DNA from: an uncultured Tateyamaria sp.
Lineage (GTDB): Bacteria > Pseudomonadota > Alphaproteobacteria > Rhodobacterales > Rhodobacteraceae
Direction of reading: 5' to 3'
NCBI RefSeq assembly: GCF_947503465.1
Contig: NZ_CANNDN010000003.1
Coordinates: 186,001-250,000 of the forward strand
Length of the DNA stretch: 64,000 nucleotides
Under the pieces are notes generated by a model. It searched no databases. It was not told where the DNA came from and saw nothing but the letters and a program-made list of their open reading frames with translations. The translations under genes and the position numbers were made by a program. Below, in pieces: positions 1,651 through 10,678 of the stretch (position 1 is the first letter of the stretch; the number at the start of each line of letters is the position of its first letter).

Positions 1651-2855
1651 CGCCCTTTGCCCTGACGAACACGCAAGCGCGGCGCGTTTTTCTGGACCGG
1701 CACGCCCTGTCAGACACGCCCGCCGGCCCCGCCCGTGGCGCAGCCCTGCTGGATCTGATCACGCGCCTTGGCTTTGTGCAGCTTGACAGTATCAACACCG
1801 TTGCCCGCGCCCACGATCTGATCCTGTTTGCCCGCAAACCCCAGTACCGCCCCAAGAACCTGCGCACTCTCTATGAACGGGACCGGGCGCTGTTTGAACA
1901 TTGGACGCATGATGCCGCGGTGATCCCGAACGCGTTCTACCCCTATTGGCATTTGCGCCGTGAACGGGATGCCGCGCGATTGCGCGACAAGTGGAGCGCG
2001 TGGCGCCGCGAGGGGTTCGAGGACAAGTTTCAGCCTGTCCTGGACCGTATTCGCGAACAGGGTCCGTGCTGCTCGGGCGATGTGGGCGAGGGGGAAACAC
2101 GCGGGTCCGGCGGCTGGTGGGACTGGCATCCGTCCAAGACTGCGCTGGAATACCTTTGGCGCAGCGGCGCGCTGCAGGTGGTCAGGCGGGAAGGTTTTCA
2201 GAAATACTATGACCTGACCGAACGGGTGATGGACGCCCGCACCATCGGCAATGCGCCGGATACCGAAGAAACCATCGATTGGTGCTGCCGTGCGGCGCTG
2301 GACCGGCTGGGCTTTGCCACCCATGGTGAACTGTCTGCGTTCTGGGATCACATCAGCCCGGCCGAAGCGAAGGACTGGTGCACACGGGCCCTTGCCGCGG
2401 GACGCATCGTGCACGTGACGGTTGCAGGTGCGGATGGCGTCGCCCGCCCTGCCTTTGCCTGGCCGTCGCTGCCCGATGACCCCGCGTTGGACTGCCCGCC
2501 CACCGCGCGGCTGCGCGTGCTCAGCCCGTTCGATCCGGCCTTGCGCGACCGCAAACGGGCCGAGCGGTTGTTCGGGTTCGCCTACCGGATCGAGATTTTC
2601 GTCCCGGAACCCAAGCGCACCTATGGCTACTATGTATTCCCGCTGATGGAAGGCGACCGGCTGGTGGGCCGCGTCGATATGAAAGCACATCGCGCCGATG
2701 ATGTTCTGCGTATCCGCGCCCTGTGGCCCGAGCGTAAAGTGCGGTGGGGCAAGGGCCGGCAGGCCGCGTTCGAGAGTGAGCTGGACCGGATCGTCAGGCT
2801 GGCCGGTGTCTCTGCCTTCACCTTCGAAGATGGCTGGTTGCGGGACGCGCTTTAG
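1647..2855 (+). CDS. ycaQ: YcaQ/AlkX-family winged-helix DNA glycosylase
   Basis: A 402-residue protein of the YcaQ family (HTH_42; related to AlkZ/AlkX), DNA glycosylases that unhook interstrand crosslinks and remove bulky alkylated bases. The catalytic-type Q-x-D motif is seen in FVQLDSINTVARAHDLILFAR (about residue 47), followed by YRPKNLRTLYERDRALFEHW, a family hallmark. The C-terminal part (FGFAYRIEIFVPEPKRTYGYYVFPLMEGDRL) is also typical. It starts at a GTG overlapping the LacI-gene stop by 4 nt, so the two are translationally coupled. The product should act in cytosolic DNA repair. The coupling to a sugar-type repressor is odd and probably reflects operon drift. Confidence 0.87.
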   Translation: MTPFALTNTQARRVFLDRHALSDTPAGPARGAALLDLITRLGFVQLDSINTVARAHDLILFARKPQYRPKNLRTLYERDRALFEHWTHDAAVIPNAFYPYWHLRRERDAARLRDKWSAWRREGFEDKFQPVLDRIREQGPCCSGDVGEGETRGSGGWWDWHPSKTALEYLWRSGALQVVRREGFQKYYDLTERVMDARTIGNAPDTEETIDWCCRAALDRLGFATHGELSAFWDHISPAEAKDWCTRALAAGRIVHVTVAGADGVARPAFAWPSLPDDPALDCPPTARLRVLSPFDPALRDRKRAERLFGFAYRIEIFVPEPKRTYGYYVFPLMEGDRLVGRVDMKAHRADDVLRIRALWPERKVRWGKGRQAAFESELDRIVRLAGVSAFTFEDGWLRDAL

Positions 2856-2892
2856 CGTTGCGCCCGCAATCAAAGCGCTTACCCTGCGCCGC

Positions 2893-3642
2893 ATGAATGA
2901 CGTCACCGCATACACGCCCAAGGTCAGGTCGGTTGGCCTGGACGGTGTGCTTGTGACCTTTGGCGACAGCGCAACAGACGCCGCAAACAGGGCCGCCATT
3001 GCCTTTCGCGACGCCGTAGACGCGCAGGGTTGGACAGAGGTCAGCGAAAGTAGCAGCACGTTGGTGTCGGCGTTCTTTCGGGTGGACCTGTCCGCATATC
3101 GGTTCGACTCCCTCGCACACCGGTTGGAGGAGGTTCTGAACACGAAGGACTGGTTTGACGCAGGCTTGCCCGAGGGCAGGACCCTTTGGACAATACCCGC
3201 TGTTTTCGGATCGGACCGCGCCCCGCAATTTGCGGAAGCCGCAGATGCCGCGGGGCTGAGCGAAGCAGAGGCCTTGCGCGACATGACGTCAACGCGGCTG
3301 CGGGTGCTGACGCTGGGGTTTGCGCCCGGGCAGCCCTATCTGGGCACGCTGGGCGAGGCCTGGAACATCCCACGGCAGAAAGAACTGACGCCGAATGTCC
3401 CGGCTGGTGCACTGGTCGCGGCGGTGCGCCAGATTTGCCTTTTTGCCAAGGATACCCCGACAGGATGGCGACATGTCGGGCAATCGGCCTTTGCCTGTTT
3501 CTGTCCCAGCGGGGACACGCCTTTTCCGCTGGCACCGGGGGACGAGGTGCAATTTGCCGATGTTTCGGCAGTTGAACTGGCCCGGATCGAGGCAACCGTG
3601 ACCGATGGCACAGGCGGTGCAACGCGGGACATCATCGGATGA
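2893..3642 (+). CDS. pxpB: 5-oxoprolinase subunit PxpB
   Basis: A 249-residue AHS1/KipI-family protein. With PxpC and PxpA it forms the ATP-dependent 5-oxoprolinase that opens pyroglutamate to glutamate in the cytosol. Recognisable blocks include GDGVLVTFGD-like N-terminal sequence (VGLDGVLVTFGDSATDAA), LTLGFAPGQPYLGTL and NVPAGALVAAV. The ATG at 2893 is preferred because upstream residues of the longer open frame overlap ycaQ coding sequence and are unrelated; the ribosome binding site is weak. It overlaps pxpC by 4 nt (ATGA). The gene order pxpB-pxpC-pxpA is standard for this enzyme. Confidence 0.93.
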   Translation: MNDVTAYTPKVRSVGLDGVLVTFGDSATDAANRAAIAFRDAVDAQGWTEVSESSSTLVSAFFRVDLSAYRFDSLAHRLEEVLNTKDWFDAGLPEGRTLWTIPAVFGSDRAPQFAEAADAAGLSEAEALRDMTSTRLRVLTLGFAPGQPYLGTLGEAWNIPRQKELTPNVPAGALVAAVRQICLFAKDTPTGWRHVGQSAFACFCPSGDTPFPLAPGDEVQFADVSAVELARIEATVTDGTGGATRDIIG

Positions 3643-4661
3643 CGGCGCTGGTGGTTCATCAGGTTGGACCCGGCGTTGCCGTGCAGGATCTGGGCCGTGA
3701 GGGTTTTCTCGCCAAAGGATTGACACGTGGCGGTGCAGCGGACCGGTTGGCCGTACACGAAGGCGCCGCATTGCTCAAGCAATCCAAGGACTTGGCTGTT
3801 CTCGAGATGGTTGGCACAGGCGGGTCGTTCGCGGCGACAGAGGATGTACGCATCGCCCTGTCCGGTGCGGAAATGACCGCGCAGATCGATGGCGCGGCCG
3901 TGGCCTGGAACGCCAGTCACATGGTCCCCGCGGGGGCGACGCTGGTCATCGGGCCAACGCGCGTTGGCACCTATGGTTACCTGCATGTCGGTGGCGGTTT
4001 TGCCACTGAACCCATGCTTGGATCCCGCGCGACGCATCAATCCTGCGGGTTGGGGGCGCTTGTCGCAGCCGGGGAACACTTGCCAATCGGCGACGATCAG
4101 CGGCGCGATGTCGGCCTGACATTGCCCCGCGACACCCGGTTTGGCGGCGGCACAGTGCGCATTGTCCCCAGCATGCAAACTGCTGATTTTCCTGATGAAA
4201 CACGCGCGCGCTTTGAGGCGACGACGTTTCGCAGGGACCCGCGTGCCAACCGTCAGGGCATCCGTCTCGACAGTGATGGCGCAGGGTTTGCCAGCCCAAG
4301 TGCGCTTGGCATTGTGAGCGAGGTCATCGTTCCGGGCGACATCCAGATCACCGGCGATGGCACGCCGTTTGTCCTGATGGCCGAAAGCCAGACAACCGGG
4401 GGCTACCCCCGTATCGGAACGGTTCTGCCTTGCGATCTGCCGCGCGTCGCCCAGGCGCCCGCTGGCGCGTCCTTGCAATTCCAGTTCGTCGAACTGGAGG
4501 ACGGCGCGGCCATCGAGGCGCGGGCGCGGGCCGCCTGGGCCGCGCTGCCCAAGGCCGTGACCCCGCTTGTGCGCGACCCGGCTGACATGCAGGATTTGCT
4601 GAGTTATCAATTGGTTGGCGGCGTCGTGTCTGCAACCGATGCGCTGTTGGATGAAGGATAA
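3639..4661 (+). CDS. pxpC: 5-oxoprolinase subunit PxpC
   Basis: A 340-residue AHS2/KipA-family protein (biotin-dependent carboxyltransferase family annotation), the second subunit of ATP-dependent 5-oxoprolinase. Typical motifs are QVGPGVAVQDLGREGFLAKGL near the N-terminus, the DRLAVHEGAALL block, and AESQTTGGYPRIGTVLPCD about residue 248-266. Length is normal. The start overlaps the pxpB stop by 4 nt and pxpA begins 4 nt after its stop, so the three subunits are made from one message in near-stoichiometric amounts. Confidence 0.94.
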   Translation: MTALVVHQVGPGVAVQDLGREGFLAKGLTRGGAADRLAVHEGAALLKQSKDLAVLEMVGTGGSFAATEDVRIALSGAEMTAQIDGAAVAWNASHMVPAGATLVIGPTRVGTYGYLHVGGGFATEPMLGSRATHQSCGLGALVAAGEHLPIGDDQRRDVGLTLPRDTRFGGGTVRIVPSMQTADFPDETRARFEATTFRRDPRANRQGIRLDSDGAGFASPSALGIVSEVIVPGDIQITGDGTPFVLMAESQTTGGYPRIGTVLPCDLPRVAQAPAGASLQFQFVELEDGAAIEARARAAWAALPKAVTPLVRDPADMQDLLSYQLVGGVVSATDALLDEG

Positions 4662-4665
4662 AAAC

Positions 4666-5433
4666 ATGCAAGTCGATCTGAACGCCGATATGGGCGAAAG
4701 CTTTGGTCCCTGGACAATGGGCGATGATGCCGCCCTGTTGAACACGGTGACGTCGGCCAACATCGCCTGCGGGGCGCATGCCGGGGACCCGGATGTGATG
4801 GCCGCGACGATGGGGATTGCCCTGGAGAAGGGGGTTGGCATCGGATCGCATCCCGGCTTTGCCGACATTCAGGGGTTCGGGCGGCGGCGCATTGATATGC
4901 CATTGAAATCGCTTCAGAATTCGATCCGCTGTCAGGTGGGTGCGACGCTTGGCATGGCCAATGCGCTGGGGGCGACGGTCCGTCACATCAAGCTGCATGG
5001 CGCGCTTGGCAACATGACGTCGGAGAATGAAGACATGGCGCGGGGCTGTTACGAGGCGGCGCTGTCGGCGCATCCGGATGCGATCATCATGGTGCTTGCC
5101 GCCACAGCGCAGGAGCGCGCGGCGCGCAGCCTTGGGGCGCGGTTTGCGTGCGAGATTTTTGCAGACCGGGCATATAATGACGATGCCACGCTGGTGGACC
5201 GTCGCAAGCCCGGGGCCATCATCCATGATGCTGAAATTGCAGGAAAAAGAATGGTCGAGATGGTGAAGGCGCAGGCCATCATCACCGACAGTGGCACGCG
5301 GATCGAGACACCGATCGACACGATCTGCTGTCATGGGGACACGCCGGAAGCGGTGGACATCGCCGCCTCGGTCCGGAGGACGCTGGAGGCTGAGGGGATC
5401 GCCGTCAAGGCGTTTGAGGGGCGGACGGGGTAG
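4666..5433 (+). CDS. pxpA: 5-oxoprolinase subunit PxpA (LamB/YcsF family)
   Basis: A 255-residue LamB/YcsF-family TIM-barrel protein, the third subunit of 5-oxoprolinase. The signature DLNADMGESFGPW occurs at residues 4-16, followed by NIACGAHAGDPDVM and VRHIKLHGALGNM. ATG at 4666 is chosen because it places the signature at the N-terminus and follows GAAGGATAAAAAC, a usable ribosome binding site; a longer frame from 4615 overlaps pxpC. It is the last gene of the + operon. About 210 bp of repeat-rich non-coding DNA follow before the convergent Rieske genes. Confidence 0.94.
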   Translation: MQVDLNADMGESFGPWTMGDDAALLNTVTSANIACGAHAGDPDVMAATMGIALEKGVGIGSHPGFADIQGFGRRRIDMPLKSLQNSIRCQVGATLGMANALGATVRHIKLHGALGNMTSENEDMARGCYEAALSAHPDAIIMVLAATAQERAARSLGARFACEIFADRAYNDDATLVDRRKPGAIIHDAEIAGKRMVEMVKAQAIITDSGTRIETPIDTICCHGDTPEAVDIAASVRRTLEAEGIAVKAFEGRTG

Positions 5434-5645: not shown

Positions 5646-7619
5646 CTACACCAGTTCGGCGTCCGTCATGATCTCGACCAGGGCGGGGCCATCGACGGCC
5701 AGCGCTTTCTGCAACGCCGCTTCGATGGCGTCGGACGACACCACCTTTTCGCCATGCGCGCCACAGATCTTGGCAAAGGCCGCGAAGGACGGGTTGTGCA
5801 GGGACGTTTCCCATACCGGCCATTCACCGGATTTCTGTTCCTTGGTGATCTTGCCCAGCTCGCCGTTGTGCAGCAGCACGTGGGTGATATCCATGCCGTA
5901 TTTCACAGCGGTCGTCAGTTCCATGGCGTATTGACCAAAGCCACCGTCGCCGGAGATCGAGATGATCTTGCGCCCTTTCAACCACTCGAAATCCTGTGTG
6001 GCCGCCCATGCACCCATCGCGGCGGGAAAGCCGAAGCCGATGGAGCCGAGATAGCCGGACATGAGAACGCGCTGGCCCTTCGTCTCGAAGTACCGCCCGA
6101 AGGAATAGGTATTGTTGCCCACGTCCACGGCGATGATCGCATCCTCGGGCGCCACGCGGCTGAGTGCGTCGAAGATGGCGAAGGCGTGGATGCCCTTGGC
6201 TGTTTCCTCTTCCATCCTGCTGCGTTTTTCCTTGCGCCAGATGTCCCAGCGGTCGGCCAGCTCGGCGATCTGGTCGTCGGCGTCGGCGGATTTCTTGAGG
6301 CCCGGTGTGATCGCGTCGCAGAACGCCCCGATCTCGGACCAGATGGGCAGGTCGACGGGGTGGAACTTGCCCAGTTGCATGCGCTCGTAATCGACCTGGA
6401 TGATGGGTTTCGACGGTTCGATCCCGGTGTGGTTCGAAAAGGAGGTGCCGAGGGTCAGGATCAGGTCCGCCTCGTTCATGAACCATGACGCGATGGGTGT
6501 GCCGGAGCGGCCCAGGACGCCGGCGGCGTTCGGGTGGCTGTCGGCCAGCAGGCCCTTTCCCTTGAACGTGGTCAGGACCGGCGCGCCAAGGGTTTCGGCG
6601 AGTTTGGTGATCGCCCCCATATGCGCCCACGCGCCGAAGCCGATCACCAGAATGGGACGCTTGGCCCTGTTCAGCAGCTTCAAGGCATCCCACACGTCGT
6701 CCTCGGTTGGCTTGATCGCGACCCGGCCCATACGGCCATCCGGTGTGGACGCAGGCGCATCTGACGGGTTCGTCTGCATGTCATCCGGGAAGATCAGGTG
6801 GGCCACGTCCTGTTGCACGACCGCGTTTTTCATCGCCAGCGACACCAGTTCAGCGTGCTTGGAGGTGCTGAGCACCGTCTGGCTGAACTTGGTCACCGCA
6901 TCGAAGGCCGAGGCCAGGTCGATGTCCTGGAACGCGCCGGGGCCGAAGACCTGGGTTTGCACCTGCCCCGTGAGGGCCAGCACGGGCGCGCGGTCCACCT
7001 TGGCGTCCCAGAGGCCGGTGAGCAGGTTGGTTGCCCCCGGCCCCGCGATGGTCAGGCAGGCGGCGGGGTGGCCCGTCAGCTTGCCATAGGCCGACGCGGC
7101 AAAGGCGGCGGCCCCTTCGTGGCGGATGCCCACATATTTCATCTCGCCCGCCTCGACCCGCAGGCGGATCGCATCGGCCAGACCGAGGTTCGAGTGGCCC
7201 ACCATGCCGAAGACATGTTTGAGGCCCCAGTTCACCATGCTTTCGGCCATCTGGTCCGACACGGTGCGTTCGTGTGGCGGTTCGGGTTCGAGCCCCACAA
7301 ATATCTCGTCATCCTCGATCCTGAGCGGATAGATTTTTTGCCCCGTATCCTCGTGCCCGCCCGGAGGGGCACCGGTCAGCGGGTCAAAGTCCCAGCCGTG
7401 CCAGGGGCAACGGATCCAGCATTTGCCGCCTTCGCCCTTTTCGATCGATCCTTCGCCCAGGGGACCCCGCTGGTGGGGGCAATGATTGTCCATCGCGGCC
7501 CATTGCCCGTCGAAATGCGACAGGCAAATGGAGACCGTGCGCGCGGTGACCGTTTTGACCCGCCCTTCGGGCAAGTCGCCGGTATGTCCCACCGAGATCC
7601 AGTCGAGCGTTTCGGTCAT
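5646..7619 (-). CDS. Rieske [2Fe-2S]-TPP-dependent enzyme fusion
   Basis: A 657-residue fusion. Residues 1-105 are a Rieske domain with intact ligands C47-x-H49 and C71-x2-H74 (CPHQRG and CPWHGWDF). From about 120 to the end is a complete TPP enzyme of the acetolactate synthase/pyruvate oxidase/benzoylformate decarboxylase superfamily: RHEGAAAFAASAYGKLTG contains the cofactor-activating Glu, and GDG at 557-559 with Asn 585 is the diphosphate-Mg motif. The substrate cannot be read, but a 2-oxo acid decarboxylation passing electrons to the Rieske cluster is plausible. No signal peptide, so cytosolic. Its ATG overlaps the stop of the preceding Rieske-GltS gene by 4 nt, with GGAGGAG inside the upstream coding end, so the two are translationally coupled. 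Confidence 0.88.
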   Translation of the reverse strand: MTETLDWISVGHTGDLPEGRVKTVTARTVSICLSHFDGQWAAMDNHCPHQRGPLGEGSIEKGEGGKCWIRCPWHGWDFDPLTGAPPGGHEDTGQKIYPLRIEDDEIFVGLEPEPPHERTVSDQMAESMVNWGLKHVFGMVGHSNLGLADAIRLRVEAGEMKYVGIRHEGAAAFAASAYGKLTGHPAACLTIAGPGATNLLTGLWDAKVDRAPVLALTGQVQTQVFGPGAFQDIDLASAFDAVTKFSQTVLSTSKHAELVSLAMKNAVVQQDVAHLIFPDDMQTNPSDAPASTPDGRMGRVAIKPTEDDVWDALKLLNRAKRPILVIGFGAWAHMGAITKLAETLGAPVLTTFKGKGLLADSHPNAAGVLGRSGTPIASWFMNEADLILTLGTSFSNHTGIEPSKPIIQVDYERMQLGKFHPVDLPIWSEIGAFCDAITPGLKKSADADDQIAELADRWDIWRKEKRSRMEEETAKGIHAFAIFDALSRVAPEDAIIAVDVGNNTYSFGRYFETKGQRVLMSGYLGSIGFGFPAAMGAWAATQDFEWLKGRKIISISGDGGFGQYAMELTTAVKYGMDITHVLLHNGELGKITKEQKSGEWPVWETSLHNPSFAAFAKICGAHGEKVVSSDAIEAALQKALAVDGPALVEIMTDAELV

Positions 7620-9226
7620 GCTACTCCTCCAAACGGGACGCCCGATATGTCGGACATGTCTTTCTTCCAGGTGGTCAGGTCATCTGCGTTGAACTTGGAC
7701 AGGTGGTCGTGGCCGCAGGCGCGGGCCATGACCTGCATCAGTTCGGTGCTGGCTTCGAAGAAGTTGGCCAGTTGGCGGGCCGATTTTTCGACGACCAGCC
7801 GGTTCACAAGATGCGGTTTCTGGCTGGCGATGCCGACGGGGCAGTTGTTGGTGTGGCAGGCGCGCATGGCGATGCAGCCGATGGCCTGCATGGCAGAGTT
7901 CGACAGCGCAATGGCGTCGGCCCCCAATGCCAGCGCCTTGATGAAGTCCGCCGGTTTGCGCAGCCCACCGGTGATGACCAGCGACACGTCGTGCCGGTCG
8001 AGCCGGTCGAGATGCGCGCGGGCGCGGGCCAGTGCGGGGATCGTGGGCACGCTGATATTGTCGCGGAAGATGATCGGGGCCGCGCCCGTGCCGCCACCGC
8101 GCCCGTCCAGGATGATGTAATCGACGCCGACCTTGAGGGCCGCGTCGATGTCCTTTTCGATATGCTGCGCCGACAGCTTGTAGCCGATGGGGATACCGCC
8201 GGTCCTGTCGCGCACCTCGTCCGCGAAGTCCTTGATCTGCGCGGGGTCCGTCCAGTCGGGAAAGCGCGCCGGGGAAATGGCGTCTTGCCCTTCCTCCAGC
8301 CCGCGCACTTCGGCGATTTTGCCGTGCACCTTGTTGCCGGGCAGGTGGCCGCCGGTGCCCGTCTTGGCCCCTTGCCCCCCCTTGAAGTGGAAGGCCTGGC
8401 ACTTTTGCACCTTGTCCCACGAGAACCCGAACCGGGCCGACGCGAGTTCGTAGAAGTAGCGCGAATTGGCCTCTTGTTCCTCGGGCAGCATCCCGCCTTC
8501 GCCAGAGCAGATACCGGTTCCGGCCAATTCCGCGCCGCGCGCCAACGCCAGCTTGGCAGGTTCCGACAGCGCGCCATAGGACATGTCAGAGACAAAGAGC
8601 GGGATATCGAGGCGCAAGGGTTTTTGCGCGTTTGGTCCGATCACCACATCGGTGCCAACCGGGTCATCGTCCAGCAGCGGGGGCTTGTGCAGCTGCGCGG
8701 TCAGCAGTTGGATGTCGTCCCAATCGGGCAATTGAACCCGAGGCACGCCCATGGCGTCCACCTTGCCATGATGGCCGGTTTTGGACAGGCCATCGCGGGC
8801 GTATTGCTGGATCAGACCGGTATAGGGTTCTTCCTCGGTCCCGTGGGACGTGTCGGCATAAAGGCCCAAATACGCATCGCGATTGAACGGCTGCGGGTTG
8901 GCGTGACCCCATGCATTGATTTCGTGCGCGTCGACGCAGATATCGTCACCCTCGACCCAGCATTTGAACTTGGGCAGCGCTTCGTCATTGGCGTATTCGC
9001 TGACCCCACTGTGCAGACGGTAGTCCCAATCGTGCACGCCGCATATCAAGTTATTGCCACGAACAAATCCGTCGGACATGAGCGCACCCCGGTGCAGGCA
9101 ACGGCCGTAGAAGACGGAGATGTCGTCATCAAATCTGACAACGACCAGATCGACCTCCCCCACGATGGCATAGGCAGGGCTTCGGTCGGGCAGCGCCGAA
9201 AGCTGCGCCACGATTTCTTTTTGCAT
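7616..9226 (-). CDS. Rieske [2Fe-2S]-FMN glutamate-synthase-type fusion
   Basis: A 536-residue protein. Residues 1-100 form a Rieske domain with C43-x-H45 and C62-x2-H65 (RCLHRG and CGVHDWD). The rest is the central/FMN domain of glutamate synthase (Glu_synthase family), including SDMSYGALSEPAKLALARG, GTGICSGEGGMLPEE and KGGQGAKTG. The [3Fe-4S] motif C451-x5-C457-x4-C462 is intact. There is no glutaminase domain, so ammonia or another amine donor must come from elsewhere, or the reaction is not glutamate synthesis. ATG at 9226 (after GGAAGA) is preferred over an in-frame GTG at 9238. It lies 79 bp downstream of the TetR gene on the same strand and overlaps the TPP-fusion gene. Confidence 0.88.
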   Translation of the reverse strand: MQKEIVAQLSALPDRSPAYAIVGEVDLVVVRFDDDISVFYGRCLHRGALMSDGFVRGNNLICGVHDWDYRLHSGVSEYANDEALPKFKCWVEGDDICVDAHEINAWGHANPQPFNRDAYLGLYADTSHGTEEEPYTGLIQQYARDGLSKTGHHGKVDAMGVPRVQLPDWDDIQLLTAQLHKPPLLDDDPVGTDVVIGPNAQKPLRLDIPLFVSDMSYGALSEPAKLALARGAELAGTGICSGEGGMLPEEQEANSRYFYELASARFGFSWDKVQKCQAFHFKGGQGAKTGTGGHLPGNKVHGKIAEVRGLEEGQDAISPARFPDWTDPAQIKDFADEVRDRTGGIPIGYKLSAQHIEKDIDAALKVGVDYIILDGRGGGTGAAPIIFRDNISVPTIPALARARAHLDRLDRHDVSLVITGGLRKPADFIKALALGADAIALSNSAMQAIGCIAMRACHTNNCPVGIASQKPHLVNRLVVEKSARQLANFFEASTELMQVMARACGHDHLSKFNADDLTTWKKDMSDISGVPFGGVA

Positions 9227-9305: not shown

Positions 9306-9866
9306 TCAGATGACGCGGGCGACCAGCGATTGGATCGCCGCTTCGAACCGGGTGGCATCCCTGGCGGCGCGCGCCATGATCTGCGCCCCTTCCACCTGCG
9401 CCATGGCCGCGCTCGCCTCTGCGCGCGGGTCGGTGACGTGCCGCAGGCTGCCATCGGCTTGCGCAAGCCGGAACACGGGTTCCAGCCATGCGGTCACGTC
9501 GCGGTGGAATGCGGCCAGTTCCGCGCGTGCGGCGTCGGGCAGCGCCCTTTGCGTGACGGACAGCGCCACGCACAGACACAGGCTGCGCCCGCCATCCGAC
9601 GCTGCGCGGTAAAGGTCCAGAAACGCAAGCACCCGTGCCCCCGCCGTCGGCTCGGCCTGCGATATCCCGTGTAGCTTTTCCAGAAAGACACCCCGATACC
9701 GCGCAATCAGGGCAAGCGACAGATCGGCCTTTGCCGGAAAGTGGTAGTGCACCGACGCCTTGCGAATCTCTGTGCTGAGGGCGAGGTCCGCAAAGCTGAA
9801 ACCGTCGAACCCGCGCGTGCGCGCCAACGTCTCGGCATGGTCCAGCAATCGGGTTTGTGTGTCCAT
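9306..9866 (-). CDS. TetR/AcrR-family transcriptional regulator
   Basis: A 186-residue TetR-family protein. The N-terminal helix-turn-helix is clear: LLDHAETLARTRGFDGFSFADLA, then the recognition stretch IRKASVHYHFPAKADL at about residues 32-47. The C-terminal ligand domain is divergent, as usual, so the inducer cannot be predicted. It lies upstream of the two Rieske fusion genes on the same strand and diverges from a cupin gene across a 128-bp region with palindromes. It most likely controls itself, the cupin gene and possibly the Rieske pair. Confidence 0.9.
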   Translation of the reverse strand: MDTQTRLLDHAETLARTRGFDGFSFADLALSTEIRKASVHYHFPAKADLSLALIARYRGVFLEKLHGISQAEPTAGARVLAFLDLYRAASDGGRSLCLCVALSVTQRALPDAARAELAAFHRDVTAWLEPVFRLAQADGSLRHVTDPRAEASAAMAQVEGAQIMARAARDATRFEAAIQSLVARVI

Positions 9867-9994: not shown

Positions 9995-10678
9995 ATGGAA
10001 CTGAATGCGGACTTCACCCGGACCGTGCGCGTTCTGAACGCAGACAACCCGTGGCGGGCGTCGCCCTCTGCCGGTGTGGACCGCAAGATGCTGGATCGGA
10101 TCGGGGATGAAGTGGCCCGCGCGACGACCATTGTGCGGTTTGCACCCGGCAGCGCATTTGCCCCGCATACCCATGACGGGGGCGAAGAATACATCGTTCT
10201 GGAGGGCGTATTTCAGGACGAGGCGGGGGATTTCCCCGTCGGCACCTATGTCCGCAACCCGCCCACGTCCCGCCATACACCAAGGTCCGAGCCGGGCGCG
10301 ACGATCTTTGTGAAGTTGTGGCAATTCGATCCGGACGACCGGCAGCATGTGCGGGTCGACATGAATACGGTGGCCACGGCACCGGATGCCGACAGGCCCG
10401 GTGTTGAAACGGCGACGCTGTTCGAGGATGCGCACGAACATGTGGCGCTGGAGGTCTGGGCCGCGGGCACCGCCAGCACCCTGACCGCGCCGGATGGGGC
10501 CGAGGTGCTGGTGATGGAGGGCAATCTGCATCACGACGGCGCGGCATTGGGCCCGCGTGACTGGGTGCGCCTGTCACCGGGCGACGTGGCCGACATGACC
10601 GCTGGTCCGGATGGCGCGCGCCTTTGGACAAAACGCGGGCATCTAAAGACGCTGCTCAAACCCAACGGAATTAAATAG
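9995..10678 (+). CDS. ChrR-like bicupin protein
   Basis: A 227-residue cytosolic protein with two cupin halves. The first shows metal-binding motif 1 (PHTHDGGEEYIVLEG, about residues 52-66) and a motif 2 (DFPVGTYVRNPPTSRHTP). The second half (residues about 130-225) is weaker. It is closest to the ChrR/anti-ECF-sigma cupin domain but lacks the N-terminal zinc anti-sigma domain, and no sigma factor gene is adjacent. A metal-dependent small-molecule enzyme or sensor role is therefore as likely. The ATG follows GGAGGACGAC, a strong ribosome binding site. It is divergent from the TetR gene. Confidence 0.82.
   Translation: MELNADFTRTVRVLNADNPWRASPSAGVDRKMLDRIGDEVARATTIVRFAPGSAFAPHTHDGGEEYIVLEGVFQDEAGDFPVGTYVRNPPTSRHTPRSEPGATIFVKLWQFDPDDRQHVRVDMNTVATAPDADRPGVETATLFEDAHEHVALEVWAAGTASTLTAPDGAEVLVMEGNLHHDGAALGPRDWVRLSPGDVADMTAGPDGARLWTKRGHLKTLLKPNGIK

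Follow-up and report, generated by a model that had tools for sequence, protein, structure and literature searches.

Two adjacent Rieske fusion genes

The window analyzed here is the whole stretch of 64,000 nucleotides (nt) of contig NZ_CANNDN010000003.1 (positions 186,001 to 250,000), from an uncultured Tateyamaria sp. It contains a pair of adjacent minus-strand genes, each encoding an N-terminal Rieske domain fused to a catalytic part unrelated to that of its neighbor (Table 1). In one product, Rieske-GltS, the Rieske domain precedes the flavin mononucleotide (FMN)-binding core of glutamate synthase; in the other, Rieske-TPP, it precedes a thiamine pyrophosphate (TPP) enzyme. The start codon of the TPP gene (ATG, 7617–7619) overlaps the stop codon of the GltS gene (TGA, 7616–7618), giving a 4-nt overlap, and a GGAGGAG sequence (7624–7630, minus strand) lies within the 3′ end of the GltS gene. 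An earlier sequence-only reading of this DNA had described the coupling, with a Shine-Dalgarno sequence inside the upstream gene, as well as the four Rieske ligands on both proteins. The open reading frames (ORFs) and the sequence confirm the former, and Pfam together with the motifs CPH...CPWH and CLH...CGVH confirms the latter.

Table 1. Features of the gene pair and its upstream neighbors, in window coordinates (aa, amino acids)
Feature	Coordinates	Strand	Details and evidence
Rieske-GltS fusion gene	7616..9226	-	536 aa from ATG 9226; alternative GTG 9238 gives 540 aa; ORF and Pfam
Rieske-TPP fusion gene	5646..7619	-	657 aa; ORF and Pfam
Rieske [2Fe-2S] domain of Rieske-GltS, CLH...CGVH	8999..9211	-	Pfam PF00355, 9.6e-11
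FMN glutamate-synthase core (Glu_synthase, PF01645)	7712..8632	-	Pfam 1.4e-90; aligned to solved GltS chains
[3Fe-4S] cysteine motif CIAMRACHTNNC	7841..7876	-	aligned with GltS C1102/C1108/C1113
Rieske [2Fe-2S] domain of Rieske-TPP, CPH...CPWH	7368..7601	-	Pfam PF00355, 1.2e-15
TPP_enzyme_N with activating Glu168	6915..7265	-	Pfam PF02776, 2.2e-32
TPP_enzyme_M, central domain	6312..6689	-	Pfam PF00205, 4.2e-33
TPP_enzyme_C (TPP/Mg site)	5670..6125	-	Pfam PF02775, 4e-31; ends without PoxB membrane tail
ATGA start/stop overlap and ribosome-binding GGAGGAG	7616..7630	-	sequence
TetR-family regulator (TetR_C_13)	9306..9866	-	upstream of pair, same strand; Pfam
ChrR-type cupin protein (Cupin_7)	9995..10678	+	divergent from TetR; PF12973, 1.4e-38

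The Rieske ligands of the TPP fusion are C47, H49, C71, and H74. By sequence and predicted fold, its TPP part is closest to pyruvate-oxidase-type (PoxB-like) enzymes: E. coli PoxB (3eya) is the best solved match by sequence (6e-66) and by fold as well (model predicted local distance difference test score, pLDDT, 84.6; template modeling score to the target 0.89–0.90). Pyruvate oxidase is also the best of 57 NCBIfam families, at 373.7 bits, under its cut-off of 742, and none among the best 25 of the 57 reaches its curated cut-off. E168 aligns with the activating glutamate E50 of PoxB and F230 with F112; sequence and the PoxB-like fold support the complete TPP active site that had been read from the letters. 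Compared with E. coli PoxB (3ey9/3eya), C. glutamicum PQO (9ev5/9ev6), and L. plantarum POX (1pow), the fusion shares the three-domain TPP fold, the activating Glu, and the position of Phe112 but differs in its N-terminal Rieske domain, in having no C-terminal membrane tail, and in overall sequence (~27% identity). Enzymes of the PoxB/PQO type bind the membrane through a C-terminal amphipathic tail. The PoxB alignment stops at residue 528 of 572, with four further residues in the query, so the end of PoxB that holds this tail is absent from the fusion. A GPAL string could be located in 65 of the 100 TPP fusions and lies 14 residues from the end in every one of them; no such string was found in the remaining 35. 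The central domain, TPP_enzyme_M, is the flavin adenine dinucleotide (FAD) domain in pyruvate oxidases.

In Rieske-GltS, Pfam detects the Rieske and Glu_synthase domains and no match to a glutaminase domain, and three cysteines align with C1102, C1108, and C1113 of GltS, which we take to be the [3Fe-4S] cluster ligands. The description of this protein as an FMN/[3Fe-4S] glutamate-synthase core without glutaminase is confirmed by both lines of evidence. The FMN core and the [3Fe-4S] cysteines are common to the fusion and the large subunit of glutamate synthase (GltB/GltS and the ferredoxin-dependent Fd-GltS), whereas the fusion lacks the glutaminase half, carries an N-terminal Rieske domain, and has GTGGHLPG in place of GEGGQLPG. 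This last difference lies in the 2-oxoglutarate loop, which reads KPGEGGQLP in GltS and KTGTGGHLP in the window protein. Across the segment GAKPGEGGQLPG...R, whose Lys, Gln, and Arg are presumably 2-oxoglutarate-site residues, the window protein keeps Lys and Arg and replaces Gln by His. The altered loop suggests that the substrate of the GltS part may not be 2-oxoglutarate. Among 67 Rieske-GltS proteins, QGAK occurs in 64 and TGTGGHLPG in 66; the Arg-context pattern, as written, occurs in 43. The window genome also contains another glutamate-synthase-core gene (G000:C1:2070151-2071119), a 540-aa open frame that falls short of E 1e-60 against Rieske-GltS.

Conservation and linkage of three Rieske proteins

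Ligand conservation was scored in sets of proteins collected with the fusions as queries and filtered by score and length; the two patterns used in the contig scan both lie inside the TPP part and none in the Rieske part. All 100 unique TPP fusions keep the CxH...CxxH ligands, as do all 67 Rieske-GltS proteins and all 54 members of a third Rieske protein family, c4, described below. Loss of the ligands within the family, which would have spoken against a functional cluster pair, was thus not seen in either fusion. Seventy GltS proteins were scored in all, and the three outside the Rieske set have CDGSH motifs; the C-x5-C-x4-C motif of the [3Fe-4S] site is present throughout the 67. High-potential Rieske proteins of bc complexes have extra disulfide cysteines beside the ligands, and low-potential Rieske ferredoxins do not. 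Such cysteines occur in none of the 100 TPP fusions, 67 Rieske-GltS proteins, and 54 c4 proteins, which leads us to expect low-potential clusters in all three.

Gene order was compared in the nearest 80 contig loci, out of at least 580 GTDB stretches encoding a relative at E <= 1e-3. The GltS gene is followed by the TPP gene on one strand in 47 of these loci: the 4-nt overlap is found again in nine, a gap of 0–50 nt in 17, a gap of 51–500 nt in two, and a gap of >500 nt without an intervening c4 gene in four, while in 15 the c4 gene lies between the two. The reverse order (TPP then GltS) occurs twice and opposite strands five times; one TPP gene was not called whole, and no GltS gene was called in 25 loci, nine of them within 4.5 kilobases (kb) of a contig end. 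By tblastn, 56 loci have a GltS match, of which 51 are of the Rieske type (in two of these the contig stops short of the Rieske part), four match only from residue 126–130 (CDGSH was seen in L132 and L137; the others are L115 and L148), and one, in L138, is a distant paralogue (35%). Chance or misassembly is ruled out as the origin of the pair, because these fusions are found again across many genomes of Bacteria and Archaea, with their ligands intact and the 4-nt overlap repeated. A defense system is ruled out as well, PADLOC giving no match for four proteins.

The c4 protein consists of a Ferric_reduct membrane domain and a C-terminal Rieske domain (Pfam). Its transmembrane part is weakly MsrQ-like (34.1 bits, under the curated cut-off of 130) and has five invariant histidines (54/54), and we infer that it may hold haem b. 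In its transmembrane part c4 resembles ferric-reductase-like proteins and MsrQ, the haem-binding membrane partner of MsrP, but it differs from MsrQ in its Rieske domain and in an operon with the genes c3, c5, and c7. A c4 gene is present somewhere in 38 of the 80 loci and is adjoined by c5 in all 38; the window genome carries the full c3-c4-c5-c7 operon on another contig (G000:C1 ~1025013-1027466; L198 9013-11466). The c5 product is membrane-anchored, with a Cys/His motif (D..C..G.M.P..G..H..CA..C) that is invariant in 17 aligned sequences; its model is good (pLDDT 88) and shows two beta domains, for which no PDB match was found below E = 0.001. Both c3 and c7 encode small membrane proteins with no Pfam match. 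In two Rhizobium plasmid regions, c4-c5 occurs without Rieske-TPP nearby: in one (L219 8001-12665) it lies beside extracytoplasmic function (ECF) sigma, DUF1109, NrsF, and chlorite-dismutase-family genes, and in the other (L220) beside a CopD gene. This gene company hints at a membrane module in an oxidant response.

We quantified co-occurrence in a family sample of 198 genomes, one per genus, and a class sample of 289 genomes; at least the window genome (G000) and G055 belong to both. Rieske-GltS was counted if the match begins by residue 6 (three are partial and one is split in two pieces). In the family sample, the TPP fusion is found in 13 genomes, Rieske-GltS in 23, and c4 in 20. The TPP fusion co-occurs with Rieske-GltS in 12 genomes (Fisher p = 3e-12) and with c4 in 12 (p = 3e-13), Rieske-GltS and c4 co-occur in 13 (p = 8e-10), and all three are found together in 11; only G194 has the TPP fusion without Rieske-GltS. 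In the class sample, 13 genomes have the TPP fusion and eight Rieske-GltS, with seven having both (p = 4e-10). These seven also carry full-length c4, and in the other six TPP genomes the c4 search hit nothing but the Rieske domain of the TPP fusion. Distances between TPP proteins and between GltS proteins are correlated (r = 0.60, 49 pairs, 0 of 2000 permutations), for which shared descent alone could suffice.

Among plasmids, 125 records matched the TPP fusion, and of the 40 top-ranked ones listed, five encode it at 53%–58% identity. The other listed matches have <=35% identity and start at residue 86 or later, with one exception starting at residue 37 (H7, Granulicella); this Rieske-like start was rejected, the protein having no Rieske ligands. 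Of four haloarchaeal plasmids, three carry both fusions, within ~17 kb.

The pairing of the fusions is therefore non-random, and the conserved, linked fusions, including those on haloarchaeal plasmids, make a redox link between them likely. The sequence-only reading had gone further and proposed a two-component redox system made of the pair. Its linkage part stands, with strong support from the genomes; the closed pair is not supported. Each fusion gene occurs without the other (Rieske-GltS without the TPP fusion in 11 of 23 family genomes; the TPP fusion without Rieske-GltS in one of 13 family and six of 13 class genomes), so the pairing is not obligate, and the third Rieske protein is as strongly linked.

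Interchange of iron-sulfur modules and possible electron routes

The nearest relatives found for the GltS core are proteins with two CDGSH motifs in place of the Rieske domain (CDGSHx2-GltS), ~70% identical over residues ~126–535, and such a protein adjoins Rieske-TPP in L132 and L137. The TPP fusions vary in a similar way. Of the six class genomes whose TPP fusion has neither Rieske-GltS nor c4, five encode CDGSH-type modules in cis: CDGSH-Fer4_19-CDGSH-Rieske-TPP in G281, G327, G428, and G380 and CDGSHx2-Rieske-TPP in G198. Fer4_19 is, we assume, the domain also called DUF1271. Such extensions are found in none of the seven partnered class fusions (5/6 versus 0/7, p = 0.005, post hoc); they were detected by Pfam in three of the five genomes and read by eye in the other two, and G327 and G428 belong to the same family. 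The longer form is encoded at L096 9490-12147, L097 7557-10187, L098 8037-10715, and in L095 (G380, by eye), and it places four predicted iron-sulfur (Fe-S) clusters in a row ahead of the TPP enzyme.

Both module types have precedents among CDGSH proteins. The type 5 protein joins CDGSHx2 to a glutamate-synthase FMN domain, and the passages describing this fusion assign it no function (Lin et al. 2011, PMC3174974). Its layout is that of Rieske-GltS, the same enzyme part being preceded by a [2Fe-2S] module at the N-terminus; the window protein has a Rieske domain instead of two CDGSH motifs. The type 7 layout, CDGSH-DUF1271-CDGSH in the passages of the same paper, is that of the N-terminal extension of some TPP fusions, where it is fused to Rieske-TPP. 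A second paper on CDGSH proteins (PMC5859297) was also useful.

These observations point to a modular, undescribed electron-transfer system. We judge the chances about even that it is an Fe-S-wired redox system in which a TPP dehydrogenase would deliver electrons through its Rieske domain to c4, a putative haem-b partner, and to Rieske-GltS. With its cofactors loaded as predicted, the Rieske-TPP enzyme would oxidatively decarboxylate a 2-oxo acid, most likely pyruvate, without the membrane tail of PoxB. Electrons would leave the TPP core, presumably via FAD, through the N-terminal low-potential Rieske cluster; their main recipient would be the Rieske domain of c4, which probably faces the cytoplasm, and c4 would pass them, within the c3-c4-c5-c7 module, to quinone or a periplasmic acceptor, perhaps through direct contact between the proteins. 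Rieske-GltS, as another client, would draw electrons from this Rieske pool and use them, at its FMN/[3Fe-4S] site, on a substrate derived from or related to the 2-oxo acid. In some lineages without these partners, CDGSH and Fer4_19 clusters fused to the TPP protein would replace the relay. More tentatively, the scheme may extend to a respiratory or redox system of bacteria and haloarchaea in which interchangeable Rieske, CDGSH, and Fer4_19 domains wire a TPP 2-oxo-acid dehydrogenase to a GltS-like FMN enzyme and, among bacteria, to a haem-b membrane protein as well; electrons from a single 2-oxo-acid oxidation would then branch, or even bifurcate, at the Rieske pool and supply the quinone pool as well as a reductive flavin reaction.

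Several findings weigh against the proposed Rieske-wired system. It is built on sequence, fold, and co-occurrence, with a putative FAD in the TPP core. The Fisher tests treat genomes as independent, though they are related, and ignore phylogeny and horizontal transfer. Individual genomes depart from the expected set: G126 has both fusions and no full-length c4, G200 has a plain Rieske-TPP with neither partner, and Rieske-GltS and c4 occur without the other two proteins in nine and six of the 198 family genomes, respectively. Among the 80 loci, 63 have GltS or c4, leaving 17 with neither nearby (several on short contigs). In L099, another uncultured Tateyamaria whose TPP protein is 93% identical to that of the window, an intact TPP gene comes directly after the TetR gene, and the 22 kb of the locus contain no GltS gene, unlike L100, L102, L144, and the window, where the pair is present. 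No c4 was found near the genes by clustering, the c4 model not being applied there, in four haloarchaeal and one Mycobacteroides plasmid regions. None of the 79 TPP genes called in the nearest 80 loci, including the 17 without GltS and c4, has a CDGSH motif, so a rule by which a fusion has either a trans partner or a cis relay depends on 13 class genomes, of which two belong to one family. Finally, the Rieske domains themselves are not close: identity is only ~20% between the TPP and GltS fusions and ~30% between the TPP fusion and c4 (15 of each).

The alternatives differ mainly in what the Fe-S domains are for. We consider it unlikely that reductive amination by Rieske-GltS is driven directly by, and is the main outlet of, oxidative decarboxylation by Rieske-TPP, with the electrons crossing both Rieske clusters. 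Adjacency, translational coupling, the presence of Rieske-GltS in all but one of the family TPP genomes, and the three haloarchaeal plasmids with both fusions would fit such a coupling, as would the ability of CDGSH-GltS to fill the same place, but each fusion also occurs without the other, L099 has a locus without GltS, c4 is equally linked, and the 2-oxoglutarate loop differs. The lone occurrence of each gene and their modularity would instead suit co-regulated but independent enzymes, whose Rieske or CDGSH domains exchange electrons with a common ferredoxin or reductase as parts of a stress regulon and not of one chain. Their gene company has this character: ECF sigma and zf-HC2 anti-sigma genes are each found in nine of the 80 loci, a Na+/H+ antiporter gene recurs in 29, and merA, DsrE, pirin, or peroxiredoxin genes accompany the fusions on haloarchaeal plasmids, which together suggests a stress or electron-overflow role for the gene set. 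The Rhizobium c4-c5 regions, one of the two records with sigma/anti-sigma and chlorite-dismutase-family genes, fit this as well. We nevertheless regard independent enzymes as improbable, given three unrelated catalytic or membrane proteins that all carry Rieske domains, the third gene standing between the other two in 15 loci, and cis extensions in five of the six class genomes without trans partners.

The same stress-like neighborhoods could be expected if the Fe-S domains did not carry electrons but sensed redox state or oxidants and turned the enzymes on or off. This we find very improbable: chemically different modules (Rieske, CDGSHx2, and CDGSH-Fer4_19-CDGSH) replace or extend one another, an interchange that fits a relay better than a sensor, and one partner is a haem-type membrane protein.

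In the literature searched, among the matches listed and with few subscription journals covered, no Rieske-TPP, Rieske-GltS, or Rieske-ferric-reductase fusion is described, and no published assignment of these fusions to an established enzyme was found. If the Rieske-wired system is real, oxidation by a TPP enzyme would gain a route to the membrane other than the lipid-binding tail of PoxB, GltS-like FMN proteins with CDGSH or Rieske domains would gain a first functional setting, and Fe-S domains would be swapped between enzymes like plug-in wires. The names in plasmid records (thiamine pyrophosphate-binding protein, glutamate synthase-related protein) would then mask the system.

Neighboring genes

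The TetR-family gene upstream of the pair is likely its local regulator; L102, which has the pair, and L099, which has the TPP gene alone, each carry a similar gene at the corresponding position. Both of these loci also have a gene similar to that of the divergent ChrR-type cupin protein, which is possibly stress-linked. A weakly DUF5996-like gene (17.7 bits, cut-off 25; 277 aa in L163) is found near the TPP fusion in 14 of the 80 loci, and in Halorarius (L018 13985-15217) a Na+/H+ antiporter gene, a distant match (36 bits), directly follows the TPP gene. On the other side of the pair, window positions 2830-5433 (+) hold PxpB/C/A-like 5-oxoprolinase genes (LamB/YcsF family); a functional link with the pair is not evident, and similar genes occupy the same place in L099, L100, L102, and L144.

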